From Clostridiales bacterium (GTDB lineage: Bacteria > Bacillota > Clostridia > TANB77 > CAG-508): a DNA stretch of 38,764 bases. The notes beneath the pieces were generated by a model, which was not told where the DNA came from, did not search any database, and saw only the letters and a list, made by a program, of their open reading frames with translations. A program made the position numbers and the translations under genes. Positions within the stretch are counted from its first letter, which is position 1, and the number at the start of each line of letters is the position of its first letter. The stretch covers positions 83,799-122,562 of the forward strand of contig SVGD01000005.1 of the NCBI GenBank assembly GCA_015056485.1, written 5' to 3'. This document shows, one piece after another, positions 28,544-30,454 of this stretch.

Positions 28544-29218
28544 CTACATCACATACAACAAAATACATAAAAATTGTAATATGCTTCCTATTATACAAGT
28601 TATATGGAAGATAGAATGCATCCATTTATATTTTTTTCCAAGACCATATATGATAGCTCCTATTGTATATGCAATTCCACCTAATAATAAAAGCAAAAAT
28701 CCTGTTAATCCTAAACAATTATAAACCACATTAATTCTAAGTATTATGCACCAACCCATTACAAGGTAGCATATCATTGAAAAAACTTTGTATTTACTTA
28801 AATCTATACTGTTAAAAACTATTCCTAAAATTGCAAGGGCCCAAACAATACCAAACATTGACCATCCAAGAGCTGTGTTATATTCTCTTAAAGTGCATAA
28901 TGTAAAAGGAGTATAAGTTCCAGCAATCAATAAAAATATAGAACAGTGGTCTATTACTTGAAAAACTTTTTTTGCTTTACATTTTGGATTTAAGCCATGA
29001 TAAATACTAGATATTGTATAAAGTATAACCAAAGTTGCTCCAAATATAGTTCCAGATATTATTCCATAAACGTTATTATTGATTGCTCCAAATATTGCAC
29101 AAAGTGTTATTGCTACTATGCCTAATGCACCACCAACAATATGAGAAACCATATTAAAAATTTCTTCACCTTTTGAATAAGTAGGCAGTATTCTATCATT
29201 TAATTTTATTCTTTTCAT
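28544..29218 (-). CDS. Hemolysin III / PAQR family membrane protein
   Basis: Seven-helix membrane protein of 224 residues. Family signatures are present: EEIFNMVSHIVGGALG at the start, SSIYHGL, the DHCSIFLLIAGTYTPF segment, and the C-terminal HSIFHITCIIGSILQF. The conserved histidines (SH, YH, DH, HxxxH) form the metal site in PAQR proteins. Bacterial relatives are called hemolysin III, but the physiological role is not settled, and a haemolytic activity should not be assumed. AGAGGAG precedes the ATG. Confidence 0.9.
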   Translation of the reverse strand: MKRIKLNDRILPTYSKGEEIFNMVSHIVGGALGIVAITLCAIFGAINNNVYGIISGTIFGATLVILYTISSIYHGLNPKCKAKKVFQVIDHCSIFLLIAGTYTPFTLCTLREYNTALGWSMFGIVWALAILGIVFNSIDLSKYKVFSMICYLVMGWCIILRINVVYNCLGLTGFLLLLLGGIAYTIGAIIYGLGKKYKWMHSIFHITCIIGSILQFLCILLYVM

Positions 29219-29336
29219 AAAAACTCCTCTTTTCCTAAATTAAAAAACTAATTTCGTATAATTATATTATTATATGTGAAAAAATTCTATACTTTATTTC
29301 AAAAAATATAGATAGGGTTTATAGGTATTATAAAAT

Positions 29337-29365
29337 TTGCAAAATTATGTAAAATATGATATAAT
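29337..29365 (+). promoter_or_regulatory. Promoter of the structured leader and 58-residue protein
   Basis: TTGCAA and a perfect TATAAT are separated by 17 bases, with TG one base before the -10. Transcription should start at about 29371-29373 (GGAAAT). Confidence 0.8.
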
Positions 29366-29371
29366 AAAAAG

Positions 29372-29436
29372 GAAATATCGTGGTTGCCCCACGAAAAAAA
29401 TCGGGGGGCACACGCCTCCTAAAAATTTGGAGGTGA
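29372..29436 (+). promoter_or_regulatory. Structured 5' leader with alternative pairings around the ribosome binding site
   Basis: The leader begins at the expected transcription start. CGTGG (29379-29383) pairs with CCACG (29389-29393) with loop TTGCC. GGGGGC (29404-29409) can pair with GCCTCC (29414-29419) across ACAC. Alternatively TGCC or TGCCCC of the first loop pairs with GGCA or GGGGCA after an A-rich linker, making an H-type pseudoknot or a competing stem, while CCTCC (29415-29419) pairs with GGAGG (29429-29433), the Shine-Dalgarno of the next gene. The two states are mutually exclusive and predict on/off control of translation. I cannot assign it to a known riboswitch class. Confidence 0.55.
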
Positions 29437-29439
29437 AAT

Positions 29440-29616
29440 ATGATGTCGAAAAAAGCATTCCTGGCTATATGCATCATTTCAATTGCATTTGCAATGTTTT
29501 TTTTCTTGACTACAAAGGCTGTATATGAAGCAGATTATACATATGCAGTATTTGCTGCTTTGGCTTTTGTGCAACTTGTATTAATACTTGTATCAAATCA
29601 TAAAAACAAGTATTAA
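29440..29616 (+). CDS. Small two-helix membrane protein (58 residues)
   Basis: The reading frame starts with ATGATG after a strong GGAGG and encodes a short basic N-terminus (MSKKAF), a hydrophobic segment at about 6-24, a short polar loop (TTKAVYEADYTY), a second hydrophobic segment at about 35-52, and a basic tail (NHKNKY). Promoter, leader, ribosome binding site and terminator all flank it, so it is very likely expressed. It resembles no family I know; small membrane proteins of this shape include transport regulators, holin-like and toxin-like peptides, and none can be chosen from sequence. The second ATG (29443) is an equally good start. Confidence 0.8.
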   Translation: MMSKKAFLAICIISIAFAMFFFLTTKAVYEADYTYAVFAALAFVQLVLILVSNHKNKY

Positions 29617-29632
29617 ATTGTAAAAACAAGTA

Positions 29633-29672
29633 AAGTGATTTCCCTGATGGTTTACCACCAGGGAAATCACTT
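29633..29672 (+). terminator. Strong intrinsic terminator after the 58-residue protein
   Basis: AAGTGATTTCCCTG pairs perfectly with CAGGGAAATCACTT (14 bp). The 12-base loop itself contains GGT/ACC. AT-rich sequence with a partial T-tract follows. Confidence 0.93.
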
Positions 29673-29797
29673 ATTATTTAGATAATTATTCACATTTGAT
29701 TTTTTATATAAAATATTATAAAATAATAAGCGTTCTTTAGAATATCTGCATATTATTAAAAATAGAAAAATATATTTTATATAAAATCTTTAATAAT

Positions 29798-29825
29798 TTG
29801 ACATAATAGAAAATATTGATATAAT
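29798..29825 (+). promoter_or_regulatory. Promoter of the LOG-family gene
   Basis: Perfect TTGACA and TATAAT are separated by 16 bases with an extended TG. The rest of the 29673-29872 gap is plain AT-rich sequence in which I see nothing else. Confidence 0.88.
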
Positions 29826-29872
29826 ATATAGGATATTTAATAAAAACAAAAGAAAATGAGAGGAGTTTTTTT

Positions 29873-30454
29873 ATGAACATTTGTGTATATGGAGCAGCTA
29901 GTAGTTTAATAGATAAAAGCTATATTGAGGCTGGAAAAGAATTAGGAAGAAGAATGGTAGAAAGAGGTCATGGATTAGTTTTTGGTGGTGGTGCTCATGG
30001 AATGATGGGAGCTGTTGCTGAAGGTGTATATGAAAAAGACGGATATATTTTAGGTATAATTCCTGCTTTTTTTGAAGAAGGAGGAGCAGAAGTTTCTTTT
30101 AAAAGATGTTCAGAATTTATTTTTACAGAAACTATGAGAGAAAGAAAACAACTTTTAATGGATAAAGCAAGTGCAATTATAATGACACCAGGTGGAATAG
30201 GAACATATGATGAATTCTTTGAAGTATTAACTTTAAAACAATTAGGAAGACATAATAAGGCTATAGTAATTTATGATATAAACAATTATTTTAAAGAAAT
30301 GGATTACATGATGGATAAGTCAATAGAAAAAGAATTTATAACACAAGACTGTAAAGATTTATATATGATGTCAAATAATATAGATGAAGTTTTAGATTAT
30401 ATCGAAAATTACGATGAAAAAGATATAGATTTAAGTAAAGTGAAAATAAGATAA
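29873..30454 (+). CDS. LOG-family (TIGR00730) Rossmann-fold nucleotide hydrolase
   Basis: The 193-residue protein has the family motifs LVFGGGAHGMMGAVAEGV, ETMRERKQLLMDKA and TPGGIGTYDEFFEVLT (PGGxGTxxE), plus LGRHNKAIVIYD. Members hydrolyse nucleoside monophosphates to base and ribose 5-phosphate; plant and some bacterial ones activate cytokinins. The biological role in Clostridia is uncertain. AGAGGAG before the ATG. ftsY follows after 17 bases and is probably cotranscribed. Confidence 0.9.
   Translation: MNICVYGAASSLIDKSYIEAGKELGRRMVERGHGLVFGGGAHGMMGAVAEGVYEKDGYILGIIPAFFEEGGAEVSFKRCSEFIFTETMRERKQLLMDKASAIIMTPGGIGTYDEFFEVLTLKQLGRHNKAIVIYDINNYFKEMDYMMDKSIEKEFITQDCKDLYMMSNNIDEVLDYIENYDEKDIDLSKVKIR

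Follow-up and report, generated by a model that had tools for sequence, protein, structure and literature searches.

This locus raises the question of why a gene for a tiny predicted membrane protein should stand behind a leader that can fold in two ways around its own Shine-Dalgarno (SD) sequence. The gene lies in the window, by which we mean the whole stretch of 38,764 nucleotides analysed here, in a compact unit made up of promoter, leader, gene and inverted repeat. Our best reading, based on comparison with relatives and on predicted folding, is that the leader would be a portable promoter-plus-leader module acting as a translation switch or timer.

All features of the unit are on the forward strand. 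The promoter, TTGCAA-AATTATGTAAAATATGA-TATAAT (29337-29365), has its -35 element TTGCAA at 29337-29342, a 17-nt spacer and its -10 element TATAAT at 29360-29365; it agrees with the consensus at 10 of 12 positions and has TG ahead of the -10 element. The leader RNA (29372-29439, predicted +1 at about 29372) carries a ladder of segments that can pair with one another, and we write the helix between segments 2 and 3 as 2:3, and so on. A first hairpin, CGTGG-TTGCC-CCACG (29379-29393; CGTGG 29379-29383, TTGCC 29384-29388, CCACG 29389-29393), is present in the predicted SD-open optimum, where it would shield segment 2, TTGCCCC (29384-29390), which is the partner of segment 3 in the SD-hidden fold and covaries with it across leaders. 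After an A-rich linker comes segment 3, GGGGGGCA (29403-29410), a mimic of the SD that reads GGAGG in most relatives and can pair with segment 2 or segment 4. Segment 4, GCCTCC (29414-29419), is an anti-SD whose partner is either segment 3 or the SD itself, which is segment 5, GGAGGTGA (29429-29436, with GGAGG at 29429-29433). The open reading frame (29440-29616) begins with ATG at 29440 and encodes 58 amino acids, or 57 if the start is at 29443 (MSKK), with two predicted membrane helices. Behind it lies a terminator-like 19-nt inverted repeat (29633-29672; arms 29633-29651 and 29654-29672, 95% complementary). Its T run is interrupted on the forward strand, and the terminator scan flagged it on the reverse strand only. 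The neighbours of the unit are a divergent HlyIII gene on one side and, on the other, a LOG-family gene, behind which comes a gene for an SRP54-type GTPase, here termed ftsY.

The protein itself says little about the function of the unit. Among 5.8 billion sequences it has one relative besides itself, 71% identical, and family searches yielded no useful family; we attribute an SMR match in Pfam (E 0.005, below the cut-off) and other weak matches to hydrophobic composition. AlphaFold2 predicted helices at residues 4-30 and 33-57 (mean pLDDT 87.7, from an alignment of 2 sequences). A near-identical unit occurs in another genome of the genus (G006) and in the goat-rectum Clostridia MAG RGIG2998, presumably the same record as G006. 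The aligned stretches of the window and the G006 locus (L044) are about 94% identical overall, and the 805 bp of 29187-29991 differ by just 7 changes, all inside 29341-29448, located in the promoter, near +1, in the loop of the SD hairpin, in the start codon and in codon 3. To judge by the sequence, 29187-29991 has the look of a recombined segment that includes an odd patch. We rejected selection on the start region as a reading of this cluster, since 7 changes in 108 bases amount to the background of about 6%, so that an unconverted patch between recombined tracts explains it equally well. Separately, about 35 bases of the window (29332-29366) match the region of the ftsY promoter in two congeners (L055, L056) at 86%, a likeness that may reflect a common promoter style; the idea that the unit had taken over an ftsY promoter was weakened when the window promoter proved to fit the leader-module promoter described below. 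A GTG frame of 18 codons (29380-29436), with AAGGA upstream, ends in a TGA inside the SD, and in G006 an additional A and a deletion close by let this frame read on into the gene (78 aa). On the minus strand, 29624-29597 and 29394-29378 form a weak antisense promoter-like and terminator-like pair over gene and leader. Promoter-like sites as such were not clearly above shuffles (11 vs 6.7, sd 2.3).

The window leader has two exclusive sets of helices, one exposing the GGAGG SD and the other hiding it, just as the original prediction held. The stretch 29376-29445 folds at -27.9 kcal/mol (z -4.05, reached by none of 200 shuffles) and ranks 20th among 7740 stretches of 70 nt taken from the window's two strands. 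When the region ahead of the SD was subjected to 2000 dinucleotide shuffles, 0.1% of them reached the minimum free energy (MFE) and 0.7% the SD-open energy, but 8.9% the energy gap between the two folds. The predicted contrast of a GC-rich leader in an AT-rich genome is also real, with a G+C content of 0.54 for 29379-29430 against 0.26 for the window. The two-state picture stood in that both pairing sets are real, but the states are not equally stable: in the complete leader, the SD-hidden fold is favoured by 7.4 kcal/mol from the predicted +1, or by 8.8 kcal/mol with a longer 3' end. The RNA that ends before the SD is predicted to be in the SD-compatible state in 26-29% of cases if begun at 29371 and in 70% if begun at 29372, so the balance of the two folds is sensitive to the start site. 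The predicted cost of opening the SD was 10.4, 8.8, 8.0 and 6.7 kcal/mol at 25, 37, 42 and 50 °C. Because 6.7 of 8.8 kcal/mol is left at 50 °C, the window leader, the only one examined over this range, does not look like an RNA thermometer.

Known RNA families did not account for the leader. No Rfam family reached its gathering score over it: in Rfam 15 the window gave only a tRNA, and 17 relative loci gave tRNAs only. A relaxed search of 29220-29870 had rli28 as its best match over the leader, at 24.2 bits against a threshold of 45. The suggested kinship with preQ1-I or pistol folds was not borne out, there being no such match at gathering score or, in 29220-29870, at E<=5. DNA searches stayed close to the window as well: the unit was not found in phages and plasmids, the leader DNA was found across the genus only in G000 and G006 apart from short chance-level matches, and the exact leader pattern occurred among 385 genomes of the order in G000 only.

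Covariance models reached further. The two near-identical sequences of the window and G006 cannot show covariation, and a model built from them (R1) gave nine further matches at E<=0.05 in 243 genomes of the family. Six of these (in G151, G165, G404, G255, G249 and G277; E 8e-6 to 0.044) lie directly upstream of the SD and start codon of other genes, although the frame behind the G277 copy stops after 10 codons. Eight of the 11 R1 matches entered an alignment (A4), while L070, L072 and L073, which by eye have no 3:4 hairpin, were left out as spurious. A second model (R2), from the six relatives, the window and G006, with the 3:4 hairpin as its sole structure, found 48 places at E<=1e-3, on E-values that are rough for such models, in 39 of 390 genomes of the window's bacterial family, spread over 15 genera, with as many as five places in a single genome at E<=0.1. 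Leaders of a similar kind, with compensatory changes that preserve the pairings, thus exist, which is the check suggested in the original prediction. Of the 17 genomes of the window's genus, 6 have a match at E<=0.1, and G000 has one. A further model (R3), run on 291 genomes of the class, gave one match at E<=1e-3, and this too lay in the window's family; because R3 scores the window itself poorly (E 0.005), it could have missed divergent members elsewhere.

The pattern GGAGG-N5-8-CCTCC-N9-13-GGAGG, searched for without any model, occurred at 39 places in 29 of 145 genomes of the family, while the reversed control occurred at 1. One of the 39 places (G249:C18) has the look of a low-complexity repeat. 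The same search brought up a further subclass, GGAGGUUUCnnACCUCC (G139:C24:15205, G140:C2:127792, G389:C25:81665 and others). The leader L083, the one searched in phage and plasmid records, had no convincing match there (best E 0.09). Of two pattern scans of viral contigs, one gave nothing and the other two matches, which we rejected by eye as unrelated inverted repeats with no start codon right after them. We found no description of such a leader family in those parts of the open-licence literature that were available to us. Judged from these comparisons, the leader is a member of an RNA family that has no Rfam entry and occurs in 15 genera of one bacterial family. The window leader is an outlier in it: the strict GGAGG pattern does not match it, and with R3 it scores only E 0.005. 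Its segment 3 has GGGGG, and its own hairpin CGUGG-CCACG replaces pairing with the 5' end.

For the anatomy of the family, we examined 51 leaders, namely the 48 at E<=1e-3, the next two (0.00115 and 0.00144) and G151:C36:1650-1733 (0.0128). All 51 parse as segments 2 to 5. A 17-nt promoter spacer was best in 45, from which comes the consensus TTGCAA-TTTTATGTAAAATATGn-TATAAT that the window promoter fits; the promoter is doubtful in a few leaders, such as L117 and L102. Of 33 leader promoters, 30 have an ATGTAA-like motif in the spacer (29343-29359 in the window), compared with 13 of the 85 other TTG-N17-TATAAT sites in the window, L044 and L108-L147; the motif is a possible regulator site. At least 22 of the 51 leaders have GUAA at the predicted +1 or within a base of it. 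Separately, an operator-like inverted repeat resembling AATATGTTATAATT..AATTGTAACATATT lies across the -10 element and the start site in L086, L088, L083 and L090. Segment 2 takes the forms GUUGCC, GUUACC, GUUGCACC, GAAACC and others; segment 3 is GGAGG, at times GGGGG or GAAGG, followed by CAA, GUAA, UGCAA, UUUU and others; segment 4 is CCUCC or a near form and stands 9-11 nt from the SD in 46 of 51 leaders. In the loop between segments 3 and 4, the commonest base reaches 41-55% at five of six positions and 86% at one, and the loop varies with segment 2, with no conserved aptamer-like core to be seen. An unpaired AAU between segment 4 and the SD is fairly conserved (A80, A80, T86%), which could mean a site for a factor or a ligand.

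Helix 2:3 was absent from the structure of R2 and so was not imposed by the search. Beyond CC-GG, segment 2 and the 3-4 loop formed in fixed register a mean of 2.77 consecutive pairs against 1.23 (sd 0.25) after shuffling, a value reached by none of 20000 shuffles (31 distinct pairs). With one leader per loop class (10 classes), which limits the effect of relatedness, the mean was 3.41 consecutive pairs against 1.46 (median p 0/500 over 200 draws); a looser count with one leader per class, of standard pairs in the first 4, was weaker (2.78 vs 1.92, median p 0.004). In an alignment of 45 distinct rows (A9), the SD-hidden structure (2:3 plus 4:5) scored 0.321 against 0.157 (sd 0.011) for shuffled and at most 0.123 for slid controls, with 81.8% of cells paired against 72.7% and 117 two-sided cells against 51.5 (sd 5.3). 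Its pairs with two-sided changes (12 vs 11.0, reached by 110 of 500 shuffles) and its further pair types (39 vs 36.3, 59 of 500) were not above shuffles. Helix 4:5 is paired in 99.1% of cells and has no two-sided change.

Helix 3:4, scored in the same alignment, reached 0.174 against 0.124 (sd 0.010) for shuffled and at most 0.082 for slid controls, with 22 two-sided cells against 10.9, counts that lean towards 3:4 because it was part of the R2 structure. Its paired cells were barely above shuffles (80.4 vs 79.1%, 30 of 500), and neither pairs with two-sided changes (5 vs 4.1, 154 of 500) nor pair types (15 vs 12.8, 51 of 500) exceeded them. Two-sided changes of 3:4 occur in outer pairs (columns 21-38 in 12 rows, 19-40 in 3), and pairs 25-34 and 26-33 are invariant, as a copy of the SD would require. 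For 1:2 pairing, a leader's own segments gave -3.53 and permuted ones -2.91 (sd 0.18) (p 0.0002, with relatedness not controlled). The measures that are above shuffles can be inflated by relatedness, against which the slid controls and the one-per-class test argue in the case of 2:3. Some A9 rows, L107, L109 and L093 among them, are anchored out of register and depress the counts. The CC anchor used complementarity of the inner pairs, so that columns 9-14 with 19-24 lean to pairing, whereas columns 1-6 with 27-32 were not used for it. A side helix AACAA-UUGUU was dropped by eye as inconsistent. On this sequence evidence, we regard 2:3 as well supported, 3:4 as moderately supported, 4:5 as conserved without variation and 1:2 as weakly supported.

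Energy predictions across the 51 leaders, which took the 7th base after the -10 element as +1, suggest an order for these helices. In the complete leader, segment 4 pairs with the SD in all 51 MFE folds, with at least 4 of the 5 GGAGG bases paired, and segment 3 is paired to the 5' side in 50; the median cost of opening the SD is 5.3 kcal/mol (1.1-11.9). In an earlier run, since superseded, on RNAs begun about 48 nt before segment 3, the SD was hidden in 49 of 51. The best SD-open fold includes 3:4 in 45 of 51 leaders. Just before the SD is made, the probability of 3:4 has a median of 0.97 and exceeds 0.5 in 44 of 51 leaders (0.70 in the window), and it is below 0.1 in five (L119, L120, L090, L095 and L104). 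The barrier from the fold before the SD to the final fold has a median of 12.7 kcal/mol (2.8-15.1; window 12.0) and is at least 8 in 45 leaders and lower in 6, values that come from a direct-path search, and hence are upper bounds, and from equilibrium thermodynamics rather than simulated kinetics. Since 3:4 is favoured early, the SD is hidden in the complete leader and a barrier lies between, these predictions suggest a model in which the leader would be open first and closed later.

The genes behind the leaders are diverse, which speaks against the idea that the leader is tied to the 58-residue membrane protein. An ORF of more than 30 aa is in place behind 48 of the 51 leaders; of the other three, L110 lies at a contig end, and the frames behind L082 (the G277 copy) and L097 end prematurely. 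These 48 genes fall into 25 BLASTP groups with a median length of 97 aa, and 36 encode 130 aa or fewer. They include small zinc-ribbon-like proteins, CoaD-like cytidylyltransferases, short two-helix membrane proteins, lipoprotein-like proteins, a DUF2784 protein and orphans. The short two-helix proteins, which were aligned without the window's protein, resemble it in size and shape, a likeness that need not mean homology. Two of 10 proteins tested have a Pfam family above the cut-off, and PADLOC gave only weak matches for 10 proteins (best E 0.0037), none of them for the window's protein. Eleven of 20 neighbouring ORFs have a Pfam family at E<=1e-5; these are mostly housekeeping families (cation efflux, alpha/beta hydrolase, RsmD-like methyltransferase, ABC transporter, rpiA, YmdB, two purine genes, DivIVA and SpoIIP, besides one replication-relaxation protein at L144), with no phage structural protein. 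For 14 class III leaders (85 between-genus pairs, some with homologous genes), the median identity is 0.78 for promoter plus leader and 0.52 for the downstream 150 nt. Eight zinc-ribbon-like proteins (L079, L081, L093, L102, L108, L121, L122 and L126) form one BLASTP group; seven of these genes stand behind GGGGG-type leaders, a sign that gene and leader class tend to be associated. Just after the leader, genes of different groups (L078, L085, L096, L098, L099, L103 and L119) have ATGAAACGGTT or nearly so, and the shared module may therefore reach into codons 2-4.

Several other explanations have to be weighed against a portable switch or timer. It is possible, if rather doubtful, that the family is a true riboswitch or protein-sensing leader, in which a metabolite, an ion or an RNA-binding protein stabilises 1:2 or 3:4 and so turns translation on. 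Conserved alternative structures that differ in SD access were indeed found, with weaker support for 3:4; these covarying exclusive helices and the partly conserved unpaired AAU would suit such a sensor, and one signal could serve a regulon with a common promoter motif. However, the 3-4 loop changes with segment 2 instead of forming a conserved aptamer-like core, the 25 gene groups have no evident metabolic theme, Rfam has no match, and for the ligand gating put forward in the original prediction we saw no sign of a ligand. A leader of fixed low translation is improbable. It would keep the SD always hidden, as is predicted for all 51 complete leaders, with 3:4 as a by-product of the SD copy, which would agree with the stricter 3:4 covariation measures not exceeding shuffles. 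A permanent brake needs 4:5 alone, however, so segments 2 and 3, their covariation and the two-sided changes in the outer pairs of 3:4 would not be kept.

Still more improbable is a similarity mainly at the DNA level, whether from a promoter module that moves or recombines or from an operator at the start site, to which RNA structure would be secondary. The higher between-genus identity of class III promoters and leaders than of the downstream DNA, and the sharing of ATGAAACGGTT by several non-homologous genes, would be expected from it, but the compensatory changes in 2:3 in a fixed register indicate selection on the folded strand; this reading and our main one may also both be true. An erm-type translation attenuator with a leader peptide would use the same kind of pairing ladder and could draw on the 18-codon GTG frame of the window with its upstream AAGGA. 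We consider it very improbable, as only 1 of 51 leaders, that of the window, has a start codon accompanied by an SD-like 4-mer ahead of segment 3, and the frame runs into the gene in G006. Hardly to be expected, too, is a type I toxin-antitoxin system, with a small membrane toxin whose message is blocked and controlled by antisense RNA. The two-helix protein, the hidden SD of the complete leader and the weak minus-strand signals resemble such a system. Similar leaders nevertheless precede zinc-ribbon-like proteins, cytidylyltransferases and others, promoter-like sites show no clear excess over shuffles, and PADLOC had nothing for the window's protein.

Parallels to a portable translation switch can be found in several known systems. 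T4-type phages reportedly carry mobile regulatory cassettes, a promoter and stem-loop module repeated beside different orphan genes, which Arbiol et al. are said to have described in 2010. The leader family has the same layout as these cassettes, but it occurs in bacterial genomes, often beside housekeeping genes, and its stem-loops are a predicted SD switch. We rejected a T4-type phage cassette proper, given that L083 had no convincing phage match and the Pfam-matched neighbours include no phage structural protein. Regulatory regions in E. coli are likewise exchanged independently of genes, although there one gene has alternative regions, whereas here one structured leader serves many genes (PMC5890482). 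A transient structure in the MS2 5' UTR permits translation before a cloverleaf-like structure forms (PMC6733600), so that, as predicted for our leaders, a translatable early fold yields to a stable fold hiding the start region; MS2 is a viral RNA, in contrast to a chromosomal module found before many genes, with a copy of the SD and predicted kinetics. The same paper describes metastable SD-masking hairpins in the aapA3/IsoA3 type I toxin mRNA of Helicobacter pylori (PMC6733600). That system shares with the leader family a small protein, anti-SD elements, successive exclusive structures and covariation, but its early hairpins hide the SD and its final block is a long-distance 5'-3' interaction (PMC6733600), while our leaders have an early fold predicted to be open, a local block and many different genes behind them. 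In ermC-type attenuation, changed pairing also exposes the SD (PMC6685928), but in 50 of our 51 leaders the stretch ahead of segment 3 contains no start codon with an SD-like 4-mer.

We therefore return to the portable promoter-plus-leader module. That the family consists of such modules, with a covarying helix that hides the SD and, less strongly, a hairpin that frees it, the SD being open early and likely closed once the leader is complete, is a proposal that, on sequence and modelling, we hold to be about evenly balanced between right and wrong. Segment 3, which is GGAGG-like, would copy the SD, and segment 4 (CCUCC) would be complementary to both. In the nascent RNA, the 3:4 hairpin is predicted to form while segment 1, or a hairpin of its own, keeps segment 2 occupied, so that the SD would emerge free; the complete leader is predicted to be more stable as 2:3 plus 4:5, with the SD hidden. 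A predicted barrier of about 12 kcal/mol would delay this refolding and give each message a limited window for translation, whose length, or the choice of fold, may depend on polymerase speed, a bound protein, a small RNA or a metabolite. A caveat on the open-first order is that 2:3 could already pair before segment 4 has been transcribed. The conservation of the promoter spacer suggests regulation of transcription as well, and in front of unrelated genes the module would act as a portable unit of conditional expression. The boldest form of this proposal, a ligand-free bacterial translation timer, would be a portable cassette in a family of Clostridia that gives dozens of unrelated orphan genes a brief burst of translation per message by copying the SD and then folding it away; we offer it tentatively, as unlikely though worth stating.

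A leader family with nothing in Rfam would bring together, as one apparent regulon, many small orphan genes from a bacterial family that has been little studied, and would provide a handle on what these genes are for. The predicted order of folds, open and then closed, would moreover be a testable case for timed translation in bacteria.
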